Positions 16,376 to 48,692 of a stretch of DNA of 64,000 nucleotides are shown here, piece by piece. The DNA is taken from contig JANQOF010000063.1 in assembly GCA_028279215.1 (NCBI GenBank), positions 62,001 through 126,000 on the forward strand, in the 5' to 3' direction. The stretch comes from Pirellulales bacterium (GTDB lineage: Bacteria; Planctomycetota; Planctomycetia; Pirellulales; Lacipirellulaceae). The translations under genes and the position numbers were made by a program. Below the pieces are notes generated by a model. It was not told the origin of the DNA. It worked only from the letters and a program-made list of their open reading frames with translations, and did not search any database. The stretch's first letter is position 1. Every line of letters begins with the position of its first letter.

Positions 16376-18175
16376 TTATGGGTTTGTCGGCGCCAACTCA
16401 AAGACAAGCTTCGATGGGGGCAAAGTGGAAGCGATCTCGCTGAATGCGTCAAGCATCTGCGATTCCATCTGGGCGATGGTGCTGCCACCAGGCACACTGA
16501 TGAAGACGCCATCACCTGCGAAGGCGATTGCCCTCATGATGTCGCGGTCGGCACCGGCGCCCACAGCCATGGTATGGATGGTGATGCCACGCTTGATCGC
16601 CTCGGTCGCCTCATAGAATGCGTACTGCTTGTCTTCGTCGGACGTTGTGTAGTCGGCCGTTCCGTCGCCGTCGTAGTCGGTCCACAGTGCCCAATCGAAG
16701 TCGCTTGGCAAGCTCCAGTTGTCCGCGCATCGATTCGCCTGCCCGTCGGTCATTAAGATAATCGTCGGTCTGGCTCCATAGCGCACGTGGCCCGTGTCGC
16801 TGGGATCGTCGGCGGCGCCAACTAGCATCTCGCGCGCCTTAAGCACACCGTCACCCATACCGGTGTAGACGTCGTAATGTCCCGCTTGGTGACGCCGTTG
16901 TATCTCGTCGAGAGTTCCGTAATCGGCGCTGATGGGGTTGCTCGAGATATCAAGCGAAACCTCTCCGTCGGTATGCTGGGTTTCCCAAACGGCATAAGAC
17001 CCGTAGCTGACGACACCGACTTCGTCACCGTAGTCGAGGTCGGCCAGGAAGTCGAGGAACAGTGACGCACCGTTCTTCACGGCATGGAAGGGATAGTGCG
17101 ACGTTCGCCACAAGTCTTCCGACTTGTTCCACTTCATTTGGCCGTTTTGCAGCATGTAGTTTACGAGTGTTCGGAATCCGTACTTCTTCTTGTACGGCCC
17201 TTTGAGCTTCTTCACATAATTGATGTAGCCCTTCCACCTATTGCGGCTAGAACTCGAACTGGGCATATTCTTAGGCAACCCGCTGTTGTAGCGGCCGGCC
17301 TGCGGATAGGGGTACTTCAACGCATTGGGCCAATCGGGATGGTCGGACTCAAACGTATCGCCCAACTGAAGTTCATCGAAGATATCGTCTGTATCTGTGC
17401 TATCGATGTAGACGCCTTCATAGCTGTCGATTTCACCGTAGCTAGGCAAGAACTTGGCTCGTGCCGGTGTCACGTCCGGCCAGGTAACCCCTGAGTTGTA
17501 GAGTTCCTGGGCGATCTGGTCGAGATTTGCCTCAACGTCCGCTTGGGTGAACTCGCCAATCGATCGCAATTCCGAGTCGTCGCTCATCGACCCAGAGAAG
17601 TCCAACACCAAAACCATATCGCGTGCTTCAACAAAGGCAGTCGCCGTGGCCTCCAACTCAACGTCGTCGCGTCCGACAGCCCAACCAAACGCAAGAGGCA
17701 GCCGTGCATCCGGAGCGCTGGCATCGGGGTTCGTCCGCCTGGCGGTCACTTGCACGACGTTCACCGGGGTTACACCCCAGTCGACCGGCCAAGTACCGGT
17801 ATCGGCATCGTATCGCCGTCTGCCGAAGCGGACATCGGAATCCGGATCGACATGCACGCCGTTGGCCAACGCAACGGTAGCGGCCATTTGTCGAGCGGCA
17901 TCGGCGGCCACGGAGTTTGGATCGATCGTCGCATCGCTGCCATTCTGCCCCGCTTGGTGTACGGCGGCCGCGATCTCTTGCGAAGCGGCAAGTGCTGCCG
18001 CGTCCGCAGCATTCTGCATTTCTGTCTCCGTAAGCACAATGCGTCCGGTGTCGACGGTGAGTGCCAAGAAGGCGAATATCAGCACTAACAAGAACGCCGT
18101 CAGCACAAGGATGATGCCGCTCTGCTGGCGATCGGACCGAGCGCTCGGACGGTGGAACACTGATGTGCGGTGCAT
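16376..18175 (-). CDS. TadG-like pilus assembly protein with von Willebrand A domain
   Basis: About 599 residues. The N-terminal TadG/TadE-like segment QSGIILVLTAFLLVLIFAFL is a single anchor helix followed by DTGRIVLTETEMQNAADAAA, the classic TadG_N pattern. A VWA domain carries the MIDAS motif DFSGSMSDDS at about 190-199 and the later TIILMTDGQANR. It is likely envelope-anchored and acts with the two upstream TadE-like proteins in Flp/Tad pilus or surface assembly. ATG 18175 was chosen because it places the basic n-region just before the helix; a TTG at 18256 overlapping the previous stop is possible. No TadA ATPase, TadBC or Flp pilin is in the window. Confidence 0.88.
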   Translation of the reverse strand: MHRTSVFHRPSARSDRQQSGIILVLTAFLLVLIFAFLALTVDTGRIVLTETEMQNAADAAALAASQEIAAAVHQAGQNGSDATIDPNSVAADAARQMAATVALANGVHVDPDSDVRFGRRRYDADTGTWPVDWGVTPVNVVQVTARRTNPDASAPDARLPLAFGWAVGRDDVELEATATAFVEARDMVLVLDFSGSMSDDSELRSIGEFTQADVEANLDQIAQELYNSGVTWPDVTPARAKFLPSYGEIDSYEGVYIDSTDTDDIFDELQLGDTFESDHPDWPNALKYPYPQAGRYNSGLPKNMPSSSSSRNRWKGYINYVKKLKGPYKKKYGFRTLVNYMLQNGQMKWNKSEDLWRTSHYPFHAVKNGASLFLDFLADLDYGDEVGVVSYGSYAVWETQHTDGEVSLDISSNPISADYGTLDEIQRRHQAGHYDVYTGMGDGVLKAREMLVGAADDPSDTGHVRYGARPTIILMTDGQANRCADNWSLPSDFDWALWTDYDGDGTADYTTSDEDKQYAFYEATEAIKRGITIHTMAVGAGADRDIMRAIAFAGDGVFISVPGGSTIAQMESQMLDAFSEIASTLPPSKLVFELAPTNP

Positions 18176-18252
18176 TTTAGTACTCGAGGTGGCTAAAGGA
18201 ATGGAACGTTCTTGGGTTACGAACAAGTGAATTGTGTGTAGAACTGTTTCTC

Positions 18253-18756
18253 TCAATTCGACAGGGTGGAACGGCCGTTACGGAAAACAACCGCTGCAGT
18301 CATGGTGTAGTCGCTTGCGCTTGCGACCGGCGTATAGCTGACCGCCGAGTAGTTCACAAGGACACTCACCTTAAACAAGCGTAGGTCATTGTCTGGGTTG
18401 TCGATGTCGAAGTCGGTGTTGGGATTCTCAAAGTCCTTGACGTGTACCGTCACTGCGTCATTTGGGATTCCATTCGAAGCCAGGAAAGCCTTGATGTCGT
18501 TTTCGAGCTTTTGATTGCCGGTTTGTCCGGTGTCGGGCATCCCTTCGCGATCCATCGACGCGAAACGGGCTCCTTCTCTGGCAGCCGTTGCGAGCAGATT
18601 CTGCGATTCGAACGCTCGATTCAGCGTCATCATGCCGAACATGATGGCGACTAGGATCGGCGCGACGACTGCAAACTCGACGGCTACCGCACCTGCACGG
18701 TCGTGCCGAAGGCTGGCCATGCGGCATACGGGAACACTTTTTCGAACGGAAGTCAT
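18253..18756 (-). CDS. TadE-family pseudopilin-like protein
   Basis: The 167-residue protein has the TadE signature RAGAVAVEFAVVAPILVAIM followed by FGMMTLNRAFESQNLLATAA and REGARFASMD, meaning one N-terminal helix with the conserved Glu and a periplasmic tail. TadE-type minor pseudopilins function in Tad pilus assembly. It sits between another TadE gene upstream and the TadG-like gene downstream with short gaps, consistent with one operon. Confidence 0.88.
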   Translation of the reverse strand: MTSVRKSVPVCRMASLRHDRAGAVAVEFAVVAPILVAIMFGMMTLNRAFESQNLLATAAREGARFASMDREGMPDTGQTGNQKLENDIKAFLASNGIPNDAVTVHVKDFENPNTDFDIDNPDNDLRLFKVSVLVNYSAVSYTPVASASDYTMTAAVVFRNGRSTLSN

Positions 18757-18791
18757 TTTTCTGGACTCGTTGTAGTTGTCGAAAACGAGAG

Positions 18792-19259
18792 TTACTCGTG
18801 GCGAATAAAGGACTGACCTTGAAGCACAACACCATTCATGAACGACATTGGGACCAGTGCGATGTCGTTGTAAGCAATTCGGGCCCGCACCAGGAATAGC
18901 TGGCGCGCCTCGGCGTCGGCTACCTCGATGTCCGGCAAGCCCTCAATCTCGGCGTGCGTGGTCGGCACCGAGGACCCAGAGTCGTAGACGCCTGCGTTCT
19001 TTACCATGATCTCGGCCAAGTCGACGTCGATCGCCCCGCCAAGCACTTCGCGAACGTAGCCTTCGACGTCCGATGTCGTCTGCCCTTCGGTAGCCCCGAG
19101 CCGTGCACCTGCACGCGTCGCGCTACGCAACACGTTGTTCACCATCAGTGCGTTCGCAAACTCAACCAGCGAGAGGATGAAGACCAGAAATACGGGCAAC
19201 ACGAAGGCTGTTTCCACAACCGTGGTGCCTGAACGTCGACGTTTGCAAAGCAACGACAT
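18792..19259 (-). CDS. TadE-family pseudopilin-like protein, first gene of the Tad-like operon
   Basis: About 155 residues from ATG 19259. RRSGTTVVETAFVLPVFLVF is the TadE anchor with its conserved Glu, followed by ILSLVEFANALMVNNVLRSA and TRAGARLGA. It is a paralogue of the next gene and lies 35 bp upstream of it. The start is not supported by a strong ribosome binding site; a TTG four codons upstream is the alternative. Confidence 0.87.
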   Translation of the reverse strand: MSLLCKRRRSGTTVVETAFVLPVFLVFILSLVEFANALMVNNVLRSATRAGARLGATEGQTTSDVEGYVREVLGGAIDVDLAEIMVKNAGVYDSGSSVPTTHAEIEGLPDIEVADAEARQLFLVRARIAYNDIALVPMSFMNGVVLQGQSFIRHE

Positions 19260-19595
19260 CGTTTCTGCCAAGGGATGTTAGTAGGAGGAGTGTGTCGCCT
19301 GGTTTGGCGACTGCGGCAATCAAACCACTGGATGAGTGTGCAACCTGATCGTGCCGCGCACCTTGGGGCTGCAATTGAACCCTAGGTCAACAGTTGGCCC
19401 GAGGTCGAAAGAAAAAAGTGAGATGCGCGGTTTTCTTGCCATGGGCGCTGATATCCTGCACGTGTCGTACGGACTCTCGCACCTGGCGCAATGTCAAGGG
19501 TCGATTGCAACGGCCGCGCGGTGTTGTGTTTTGCCAACATCCGTACGAATCGACGAGGCAAACAAGTGCCGATCAGACGCCTTCGGTAGCTGGCA
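19260..19595. other. Intergenic region, 336 bp, no gene recognised
   Basis: The region lies between the Tad-like operon and the Lnt-pilin gene, both minus strand. It should hold the promoter of the Tad-like operon. A perfect TTGACA occurs on the minus strand near 19490-19500, but the expected -10 position is poor. No open frame there looks like a protein. Confidence 0.45.
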
Positions 19596-21602
19596 CTACT
19601 TCCCACCACCTCCGCCGCCTACCTCCACGCGATGTGTGGTGGAGTTGAGCTGATAGGGCTGTTCGGTCACTGGGTCGAGGGGAATCCCTTCGGGGAAGTA
19701 GTCGGGATCCGCGGCAATGTCGCTCAGATCGTCGGCAGGCCAGTCGCCTTCGACTACGTAGTATCGCTCGACCGCCGAATTGATCTGAGCCCGGTTCATC
19801 TCGTCGGCTCGTTGGTTGGTACCGGACGTGGAATTGATCACTCGCGGCACAATAATCGCCGCCAACGTGCCGAGAATCGCGAGCGTAGCGAGCAACTCCA
19901 TCAAGCTGAATCCACGAACTTCCGCACTTGGCGTCCTGCGGGGTGCCTTGGGGTTGCTACCGTTTTCGGTACAGGTTGCTGATCGGCGGCGCAGTTGTAG
20001 GCCGGGAACCGCACAACAAGTTATTAGTGCGAAGCTTCCAAGGGTGAACAATGTGGTGCTCATGGGAATCTCGTTACTTGGCTCGTAGGTCAAGGGAACG
20101 ATCACACGCGCCGTCCGCCCCTCGTCTACAATGCATGGTTTGAATCTGCCCGCTTCGTCGATCACTCCCGATGCTCCTCCGTGGCAGTTGCGCACGATGG
20201 GCCGCCGCGTCTGAATGGCTCTGAGTCGGGCCATTCGCAGCAACGTCCGCGAGACGACTCCGGTTCGATCCGTCGCCTCGCTTCCACAATGCACATAGAA
20301 ATCGACCGTTCCATCATCACTGAGTTCGGCAACGCGACGTCGATCCGCAATATCGTAGCACACAATACAGGCAAACCGGTGTCGTCCGTGTACCGAATCG
20401 ACGGCAAACCGCGGCACCACGGTGCCGGTTAGGTAGCGTCTATGTGTGGGAATGCCAAACCAGTTCGCAAGCGGCGCATCCCTCTCAAACAGGGGAGCTG
20501 GATTCAGTTTGTCGCCATAACCGACAAAACCGGATTTGGCGTCGGCGTATACCACGCTGTTGTAGCGACGCGGCATGGGGCCCGACAGGTCGACGCGTTC
20601 GCAACCGAGCACAATGCCGGCGTTCGCTCGTCGCGCCGCCTCGCACAGACGATGGCGATACCAAGCGGAGTAATCGCCGGGAGCGTATCGAGCCAGTGGC
20701 CGAATATCGCCTGGCAGAGGCAAGGAATCTGCAGACTGCCCCGTCACGAACTTGTGGTGGTCGGCAAGCTCGGGCCAAACCAATAGATCGGCTTGGACAA
20801 GCTTGTCATCGTTCTCCCAACACAACTGCCGCTCGCTGTCGATGAGCCACTCGTGCCGACCAACCAAGGCAATGGTCGGACCTGGAATTGGGTGACTATG
20901 CTCCAGGCGCCACCAGCCATATGAAAAGGTGGCCGCGACTGCGATTGGAGCTGTCCACATGGCTACTTGCCATCGGATTCGGCGACCCCTCCACCAGGCG
21001 ACGGCTAAGCGGGCGAACTCAAACAGCCAGCCATTTACCAAAGCAACCAGCACGCCAAGGGAAGTCTCCCCACCGAATCGTGCGATTTGCGCCACGATCG
21101 TCCACTCGACTTGCGTGCCCCCTAATCTCAACCAGGGCCCGGCGGAAGGGTCTACCAACGAACCAACAAAGCTACGCAGCAACTCAAACCCGATCCAGAA
21201 GACCGGCAACCCTATGCATACGGGCAAATCAAATCTGACAACCACGGCGCGAGCGACCAGCATGCTGAAGCAGAAGATCAGGGCTGCCAGTTGACTAAGA
21301 ATCAACCAAACGATCTGAAAGGCTGAGTACGGCTCGAATTCGGCGATCCAGTCGAGCGCAATCAAATGATACGCCAAACCACCCAGGTAGACCCCGGCCC
21401 AGCCTTGGGAACCAAGACGCTTAGCCGTCAGCGCCAGGCCAAGTGGAGCAATGGCGACCCATGCGAGCGGCGTGGCGTTGATCGGCGGGTAACAGCAGCC
21501 GAGTAGCACGCCGGACAATACTGCGGCGATCGCCACCACCATCGACTGAAATCGACCGACGCTAGGGGAACAGCAGAGGTATCCGAGGGCACGCAAATTC
21601 AT
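19596..21602 (-). CDS. lnt: Apolipoprotein N-acyltransferase fused to a type II pseudopilin
   Basis: Residues 1-535 (from ATG 21602) are a complete Lnt, which transfers the third acyl chain to bacterial lipoproteins at the outer face of the inner membrane. Multiple N-terminal helices are followed by the nitrilase domain with the Glu-Lys-Cys triad in order: Glu in LLVWPEL (about 277), Lys in YGDKLNPAP (about 364) and Cys in IVCYDIADRR (about 413). A last helix (STTLFTLGSFALITCC) is followed by about 33 linker residues. A class III prepilin signal (VRG then FSLMELLATLAILGTLAAII) starts the final 104 residues, a GspG-like pseudopilin ending in six glycines and Lys. No ATG, GTG or TTG lies in frame between the last Lnt helix and the pilin cleavage site, so the pilin depends on the fusion unless prepilin peptidase releases it. 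Confidence 0.88.
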   Translation of the reverse strand: MNLRALGYLCCSPSVGRFQSMVVAIAAVLSGVLLGCCYPPINATPLAWVAIAPLGLALTAKRLGSQGWAGVYLGGLAYHLIALDWIAEFEPYSAFQIVWLILSQLAALIFCFSMLVARAVVVRFDLPVCIGLPVFWIGFELLRSFVGSLVDPSAGPWLRLGGTQVEWTIVAQIARFGGETSLGVLVALVNGWLFEFARLAVAWWRGRRIRWQVAMWTAPIAVAATFSYGWWRLEHSHPIPGPTIALVGRHEWLIDSERQLCWENDDKLVQADLLVWPELADHHKFVTGQSADSLPLPGDIRPLARYAPGDYSAWYRHRLCEAARRANAGIVLGCERVDLSGPMPRRYNSVVYADAKSGFVGYGDKLNPAPLFERDAPLANWFGIPTHRRYLTGTVVPRFAVDSVHGRHRFACIVCYDIADRRRVAELSDDGTVDFYVHCGSEATDRTGVVSRTLLRMARLRAIQTRRPIVRNCHGGASGVIDEAGRFKPCIVDEGRTARVIVPLTYEPSNEIPMSTTLFTLGSFALITCCAVPGLQLRRRSATCTENGSNPKAPRRTPSAEVRGFSLMELLATLAILGTLAAIIVPRVINSTSGTNQRADEMNRAQINSAVERYYVVEGDWPADDLSDIAADPDYFPEGIPLDPVTEQPYQLNSTTHRVEVGGGGGGK

Positions 21603-21836
21603 GTACAAAACTAGGTCAATGGCTGCTCACTACGGCCTCCGATGGGCTGGACAACACGGGACGTCGACTGATTTGCAACGCATTTCCCTAGTCGTAGCGA
21701 TCGTGCTGATATTGCGGACGTCGCCAGGCAATGCGCGGTAGAAACCGGCCGCCAATCTGGTCTAATGGAGAGATTGTCGACCACAAAACGGTAGACGCAG
21801 TTCGCCGTAGCCCAGTTGCTCAAAGTTCCCAACGAA

Positions 21837-47636: not shown

Positions 47637-48692
47637 ATGAACAATTCGATTGATCGCAGGACGACGAGGTCGATCCCAGAGGCCGCTATCCGTCGGAGAC
47701 GTTTGACGGTCGGCTTCACGTTGGTCGAACTGCTTGTGGTGATCGCGATCATCGGAATCCTGGTCGCGCTGCTCTTGCCCGCGGTGCAAGCGGCGCGGGA
47801 AGCGGCACGGCGTTCCAGTTGCATCAACAACTTCAAGCAGTGGGGCCTCACCTTGCAGTTGCACCACGACTCGCACGGTGAGTTACCTAAGGATCCGCAT
47901 CCGTTCGACGGCCAAAACGGCAACCTTCTGATGTTGCAACTCTTGCCTTACATTGAGGCCCAAGCACTGCGCGATAACTACGACTTTAGTCAGCCACCGG
48001 TGGCCGAGGACAACGTTCGCCTGTTCCGGCAAATCTATCCCGTATTCCATTGCCCGAGCGACGAACCGAAGCAGATGATTAGCGCCGGCGATCAATTTGC
48101 GGGAGACTACAAGACCAACTACGGCTTGAGTTACGGCCAAAAGGTCTTTGGTCCCGGCTCTGCAAGAAGCCCGGGGCTTGGCTACTACAACAACCTCAAA
48201 CAGCACCGAAGTCCACCGGCGAGCGCCGCGTTAGTGCAGCAATGGAAAGCTTCTCGTGGCGTGTTCTTTCCGGACCGGTCGTATTCATTCCGACAGGTTG
48301 TCGATGGACTCAGTAAGACGTTTGCAATGATGGAGATGATTCAAACCACGTCGTCTGGCCAGGGGAACAACGAAACCGATCGCCGCGCAAGGATTTGGGT
48401 AAGGAATTGGGGTGCTTATCAAGTTCAGACCTTACTTCCTCCCAACTCACAGGGCGTAGACGCCAAAGACAGAGACAACACCTCGTGTTGGGAAGACTCC
48501 CCCGAAGCGCCATGCGTCCGCCAAGGTAACGGAGAGCTCGGTTACATCGGCTCTCGTAGTCGGCACCAAGGCGGCGTAGTGGTCTCGCTGTGCGACGGCT
48601 CATCGCATTTCGTTGCCGACGATGTCGATATCGGCATCTGGCGAGCGCTATCAACGATGGCGGGGCAAGAGGTCTTCGAGTGGCCGTTCTAG
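47637..48692 (+). CDS. DUF1559 prepilin-like protein
   Basis: The 351-residue protein has a class III prepilin signal ([20 protein letters not shown] then LLPAVQAAREAARRSSC), the hallmark of the planctomycete DUF1559 family. A long C-terminal domain ends in the conserved pattern RSRHQGGVVVSLCDGSSHFV, DDVDIGIWRALSTMAGQEV. It is membrane-anchored by the pilin helix and exposed outside. A role in surface polysaccharide binding has been suggested for the family, but this is inference. AGGAGA precedes the ATG by 6 nt. Confidence 0.93.
   Translation: MNNSIDRRTTRSIPEAAIRRRRLTVGFTLVELLVVIAIIGILVALLLPAVQAAREAARRSSCINNFKQWGLTLQLHHDSHGELPKDPHPFDGQNGNLLMLQLLPYIEAQALRDNYDFSQPPVAEDNVRLFRQIYPVFHCPSDEPKQMISAGDQFAGDYKTNYGLSYGQKVFGPGSARSPGLGYYNNLKQHRSPPASAALVQQWKASRGVFFPDRSYSFRQVVDGLSKTFAMMEMIQTTSSGQGNNETDRRARIWVRNWGAYQVQTLLPPNSQGVDAKDRDNTSCWEDSPEAPCVRQGNGELGYIGSRSRHQGGVVVSLCDGSSHFVADDVDIGIWRALSTMAGQEVFEWPF

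Follow-up and report, generated by a model that had tools for sequence, protein, structure and literature searches.

In the window (the whole stretch of 64,000 nt of Pirellulales DNA that was analysed), one open reading frame runs from an apolipoprotein N-acyltransferase (Lnt) straight into a pseudopilin-like protein that lacks a start codon of its own. The question raised by this locus is whether the frame reflects an accident, such as a lost stop codon, or a genuine two-part protein, and what a known lipoprotein housekeeping enzyme would have to do with a pilin. The reading that we favour, and consider probable, is that the frame encodes a conserved bifunctional polyprotein in which an Lnt paralogue (Lnt2) and a dedicated pilin form one working module, that this module has been fused twice, and that the chain is most likely cut at VRG/FSLMEL.

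The fusion and its counterparts in other genomes

Along the frame (Table 1), LNT_N (residues 32-193; 80.7 bits, Pfam cut-off 27.1) is followed by CN_hydrolase (residues 272-488; 25.9 bits, cut-off 23.2), the last membrane helix, the linker and the pilin. An earlier note on this DNA, which used the first ATG as the start, had read the frame as an in-frame fusion of a complete Lnt to a GspG-like pseudopilin. The fusion itself was borne out, as the frame is open throughout and both domains are recognized by profile. The description as complete holds for LNT_N, CN_hydrolase and the Glu-Lys-Cys triad, but the Lnt half scores 97.1 with TIGR00546, the NCBI Lnt equivalog, which is below the cut-off of 132.9. 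Similarly, the likeness to GspG is right, but with 31.6 bits the pilin half stays under the cut-off of the GspG equivalog TIGR01710 (88.85) and is not classed as GspG. The AF2 model (mean pLDDT 81) shows a confident Lnt fold with pLDDT mostly above 85, the last helix excepted, a disordered linker and a long pilin helix (residues 569-620), and Foldseek ranks solved structures of Lnt at the top (8aq2, E=1.8e-21). As in E. coli Lnt (5N6H), the fold comprises an eight-helix membrane part and a nitrilase domain with the triad and a fourth Glu.

Table 1. Features of the Lnt2-pilin fusion, in window coordinates
Feature	Position	Strand	Remarks
Lnt2-pilin fusion ORF	19596..21608	-	670 codons; first ATG at 21602
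Lnt2 half, made up of membrane helices (the last at 20057-20010) and a nitrilase-like domain in the periplasm	20010..21542	-	Pfam, AF2, Foldseek
Catalytic Glu E280 (E. coli E267)	20769..20771	-	triad
Catalytic Lys K367 (E. coli K335)	20508..20510	-	triad
Nucleophilic Cys C417 (E. coli C387)	20358..20360	-	triad; followed by Tyr-Asp, the Lnt2 signature
Linker, cytoplasmic (predicted), 30 residues	19911..20000	-	7 K+R vs 2 D+E; lacks a start codon; pLDDT in AF2 mostly <50
ACG codon	19932..19934	-	8 residues before the cleavage site, near the ATG position of unfused relatives
Predicted prepilin peptidase site G566/F567 (VRG/FSLMEL)	19908..19913	-	GGA 19913-19911, TTC 19910-19908; Glu at +5
Mature pilin (predicted), 104 residues	19599..19910	-	Gly-rich tail ending in Lys (GGGGGGK)

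The earlier note had offered a recently lost stop codon as one explanation and had suggested a search for a conserved fusion among relatives. Such a fusion was found in a second genus of the family (G063; L038, 1474-3492; 672 aa), in an independent assembly (JAJDED010000053.1). Its Lnt half is only about 40% (39-41%) identical to that of the window, which speaks against recent stop loss, and its pilin half is 64% identical. A further frame, of 919 codons, in a genome of another family (G056) carries LNT_N, CN_hydrolase, N_methyl and DUF1559, although its structure model is confident only in the Lnt half. The fusions in G063 and G056 led us to reject recent stop loss or an assembly error as the origin of the fusion; given the phylogenetic distance between the window's genome and G063, neither a stop codon lost recently nor a pair of independent assembly errors is at all likely.

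In a tree of 43 Lnt proteins, the Lnt2 proteins form a clade that is split from Lnt1, the housekeeping type, at 100/100. The window and G063 fusions are sisters (98/93), with the unfused, convergent gene of G002 as their nearest relative (100/99), and the G056 fusion is placed apart from them. As judged from the sequences, the window and G063 fusions are of single origin, explained by one inversion and fusion, and the G056 fusion is independent. The GspG-type fusion is rare, with only two known. The window's genome carries a separate Lnt1 on contig C64, and Lnt1 was present in all 13 carriers of Lnt2 checked, which excludes loss of Lnt1 and its replacement by the fusion. Neither this housekeeping gene nor the divergent pilin-associated clade nor the second independent fusion figured in the earlier note. 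Among the samples searched, Lnt2 was confined to Pirellulales, the order of the window's genome; none was found elsewhere in the phylum among 392 sampled genomes, which gave Lnt1-type matches only. The carriers with named records are all metagenome assemblies.

dS between the two GspG-type fusions was saturated. The unfused pair G020/G060 gave dN 0.110 and dS 0.742 for Lnt2 and dN 0.116 and dS 0.799 for the pilin, values that indicate purifying selection on both genes.

Linker, processing site and pilin

The N- and C-termini of E. coli Lnt are both cytoplasmic (PMC5500888), and prepilin peptidase removes leaders at the cytoplasmic face by cutting behind a Gly or Ala (PMC10191384), in agreement with the earlier note's argument that the topology suits cleavage. 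The last Lnt helix of the fusion would likewise end in the cytoplasm, and the positive linker would keep the signal of the pilin in the compartment in which prepilin peptidase acts, so that the chain is most likely split at VRG/FSLMEL. The linkers of all three fusions carry a net positive charge, as expected of a cytoplasmic segment, and the internal signal should therefore be reachable by the peptidase. All three also keep the cleavage motif (G or A at -1, F at +1, E at +5), the predicted site in G063 being A/FSLLEL. In the window protein, the prepilin motif is recognized at residues 565-586 (TIGR02532, 22.1 bits; cut-off 16.3), and the features of a class III prepilin signal are present (RG/FSLMEL, Gly at -1, a hydrophobic helix and Glu at +5). 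A24 peptidases were found in all seven carriers searched, including the window's genome. After the cut, an ordinary pilin would be set free and the Lnt2 part would retain a short tail in the cytoplasm, and a single chain would mean equal synthesis of enzyme and pilin.

The statement in the earlier note that no in-frame ATG, GTG or TTG lies between the last Lnt helix and the cleavage site proved correct; the nearest are an ATG at 20063-20061 (-51 codons) and a TTG at 20051-20049 (-47), both at that helix. No normal start codon was found in the G063 linker either. The openness of such a linker is weak evidence, because 30 codons can remain open by chance. The ACG listed in Table 1 is possibly a relic of an old start codon, with chance also conceivable, and near-cognate codons (ACG and ATC) where the former start would have been are suggestive only.

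In its prepilin signal, N-terminal helix and sequence, the fused pilin resembles GspG, being closest to the pilins encoded in type II secretion system (T2SS) clusters of the same bacteria. It is encoded outside such a cluster; a T2SS-like cluster with its own pilins sits on contig C43 of the window's genome, and fusion to this genome's own T2SS pilin was ruled out, as the C43 pilin and the fused one do not group together. Unlike GspG, the Lnt2-linked pilins of GspG type form lineages apart from 22 T2SS-cluster pilins, and the fused one has no start codon of its own. They also carry a Gly-rich tail with Lys, which was found in all six Lnt2-linked GspG-type pilins versus none of the 22 T2SS-cluster pilins. 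This tail is seen at window 19599-19640 and at L033, L034, L035, L038 and L039, and the T2SS-cluster pilins of the same bacteria end before it.

Active site of the Lnt2 half

The window protein possesses the triad, as the earlier note had reported, together with the fourth active-site residue, E375 (equivalent to E343 of E. coli Lnt), and the equivalent of Y388. Judging by these residues, Lnt2 retains what is needed for acyl-enzyme formation, and would be an Lnt paralogue with the nitrilase triad kept and the active-site surround changed. The Cys is followed by Tyr-Asp in Lnt2 versus Tyr/Phe-Glu in Lnt1, and the Gly before E343 is lost in Lnt2. At the positions of V339, G342 and E389, which E. 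coli Lnt requires, and of the partner residue Y333, the window protein has A371, F374, D419 and G365, in that order; the equivalents of Y333, V339 and G342 are lost (YGDKLNPAPLFE).

Both G342A and E389A inactivate E. coli Lnt, and E389A still forms the acyl-enzyme, yet is inactive (PMC5500890); according to a legend in that paper, E389A had proved inactive when an earlier study used the same assay. Since Lnt2 has Asp at E389, a change of acceptor in Lnt2 is a reasonable, if unproven, inference. The window's Lnt half evolves fast, with a long branch in the tree (1.32 versus 0.66 for G063), which, together with the loss of the Y333, V339 and G342 equivalents, makes its activity less certain than that of the G063 enzyme. 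By its sequence, the window enzyme may be weakened or re-purposed.

Lnt2 genes beside pilin genes

Both flanks could be read for 18 Lnt2 genes. A pilin gene is fused to or directly beside 15 of these and lies 3.4 and 5.9 kb away from two more, the exception being G196. By comparison, none of about 55 Lnt1-type loci showed a pilin at a distance of 1.5 kb or less. The earlier note had held that relatives with a separate pilin gene would speak against the fusion. Such relatives do exist (G002, G046, G020 and G060, which share the Lnt type and the kind of pilin with the fusion), but their pilin genes are convergent, on the opposite strand, and still adjoin the Lnt gene, and so support the partnership.

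At other Lnt2 loci, the partner belongs to the planctomycete DUF1559 (SBP_bac_10) family of pilin-like proteins, as it does in the G056 fusion. These pairs are divergent in G111 and G095, convergent in G071 (twice) and co-directional in G037, G104, G087 and G071:C62; the co-directional genes overlap by ATGA in G071:C62, G037 and G104 and are separated by 1 nt in G087. DUF1559 is a large paralogous family, with 68 members in P. limnophila (PMC10632474). Chance pairing with such abundant genes was rejected: six of the seven genomes searched gave 23-41 DUF1559 matches each, which at an assumed 4,000-5,000 genes would place a DUF1559 neighbour beside roughly 2% of genes, much less often than observed. 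Within the family, one sharp subtype, that of G056, goes with most DUF1559-type Lnt2 genes. Nine genes match it with 297 bits or more, whereas all other DUF1559 genes score 124 or less, and eight of the nine are fused to, adjacent to or at most 6 kb from an Lnt2; the partners in G037, G104 and G087 are of other DUF1559 types. We did not find a link between DUF1559 and Lnt in the open-access papers searched, although it may be reported elsewhere.

By gene order, Lnt2 and pilin are normally neighbours in Pirellulales, and would have been joined in frame in the common ancestor of the window's genome and G063 and, independently, in G056.

Several further observations were made at these loci. G071 has four Lnt2 genes (C62, C188, C190 and C287), each with a partner of the DUF1559 subtype on the same contig, in addition to Lnt1. 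Several DUF1559-type Lnt2 loci (L161, L162, L167, L168, L169 and L171) also encode small secreted Cys-rich, DUF1573-like and MauE-like membrane proteins, and a family of ~330 aa with a signal peptide, a C-terminal helix and no Pfam match recurs at several of them; this gene set looks like an undescribed gene cluster. In G056, one locus (L163, G056:C191, 6923-8035) has a subtype pilin and a Cys-rich gene near a contig end without Lnt2, and another (L174, G056:C55, 260-1939) has an Lnt2 without a pilin at a contig start; they may be two halves of one split locus.

Alternative explanations

One alternative, which we regard as unlikely, is that translation of the pilin begins independently at an internal codon, which could be an ATG or TTG at the final helix of Lnt or an ACG or ATC in the linker, and that the frame is a compact gene overlap. 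In-frame ATG codons do occur at -51 in the window and -44 in G063, with TTG at -47 and -39, and the G056 linker contains TTG and GTG; ACG at -8 and ATC at -10 lie near the usual leader position, and the ATGA overlaps of co-directional pairs show that overlap is normal here. However, translation from the helix starts would put a hydrophobic helix in front of the signal, whereas most unfused partner pilins have a leader of about 9 residues, and the linkers of both the window and G063 lack a normal start. ACG and ATC are very poor start codons. A separate start hidden by a base lost in assembly or base calling is far less probable still: an out-of-frame GTG at 19927-19925 follows AGGA (AGGA-6 nt-GTG), and one extra base would give MRK-x-RG-FSLMEL, but the site has no homopolymer, the same fusion with a likewise startless linker stands in an independent assembly of another genus, and G056 has a different Lnt-pilin fusion.

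The chain might also stay uncut, with the pilin as a ninth membrane helix that tethers the enzyme at a secretion machine. The topology allows this (PMC5500888) and access of the peptidase to an internal site is only presumed, but all three fusions retain the cleavage motif, and a pilin held by its tether would be unable to join a filament, so that we hold this to be distinctly improbable. Somewhat less doubtful, though still not expected, is that the enzyme half of the window fusion is decaying and that the pilin alone matters. The long branch, the missing Y333, V339 and G342 equivalents and the better conservation of the pilin than of the Lnt half against G063 (64% versus 41% identity) would fit such decay, yet the reading frame has stayed unbroken for more than 500 codons, the triad and the E343 and Y388 equivalents are kept, and the sister fusion in G063 retains an ordinary Lnt2.

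Possible function

The polyprotein of Lnt2 and a dedicated pilin thus remains our preferred reading, and it has a partial parallel. Ppm1 of mycobacteria is an Lnt fused to a polyprenol-phosphate mannosyltransferase; in both cases Lnt is joined to another protein, but the partner in Ppm1 is a glycosyltransferase and not a pilin with a processing site. We know of no precedent for a natural polyprotein as a substrate of prepilin peptidase, and the fusion therefore represents a natural test of whether this peptidase processes an internal site.

Lnt2 would probably act on or beside its pilin, or on cargo of the pilin, at the periplasmic face, with lipoproteins in general served by Lnt1. Very tentatively, Lnt2 could be a pilin-directed acyltransferase, unaltered in its acyl-enzyme step but changed on the acceptor side, that lipidates its partner pilin or cargo handled by the pilin, the fused forms being a natural polyprotein cut by prepilin peptidase. 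On GspG-type partners, the acceptor would perhaps be the Lys of the flexible, periplasm-facing Gly-rich tail, which may alternatively be a mere tether. Gene order, stop-start overlaps and two independent fusions tie the Lnt2 clade to pilins, and this tie predicts protein acylation linked to type IV filament or type II secretion machinery. The earlier note's proposal that lipoprotein maturation is linked to pseudopilus biogenesis would be one form of this hypothesis. A link of acylation to pili or the T2SS was not found in the open-access papers searched and may be reported elsewhere. In G060, the Lnt2-pilin pair (L176, G060:C44, 1104-8032) lies just before apparent GspE, GspF and more pilin genes, a hint that this pair serves the adjoining T2SS-like machine.

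Other pilin-like genes are present in the window. Three ORFs immediately downstream on the strand of the fusion (16376-19271) appear TadE-/TadG-like by eye and would be another pilus-type gene set, and a DUF1559-type pilin-like ORF at 47637-48689 on the forward strand apparently has no relation to the fusion.
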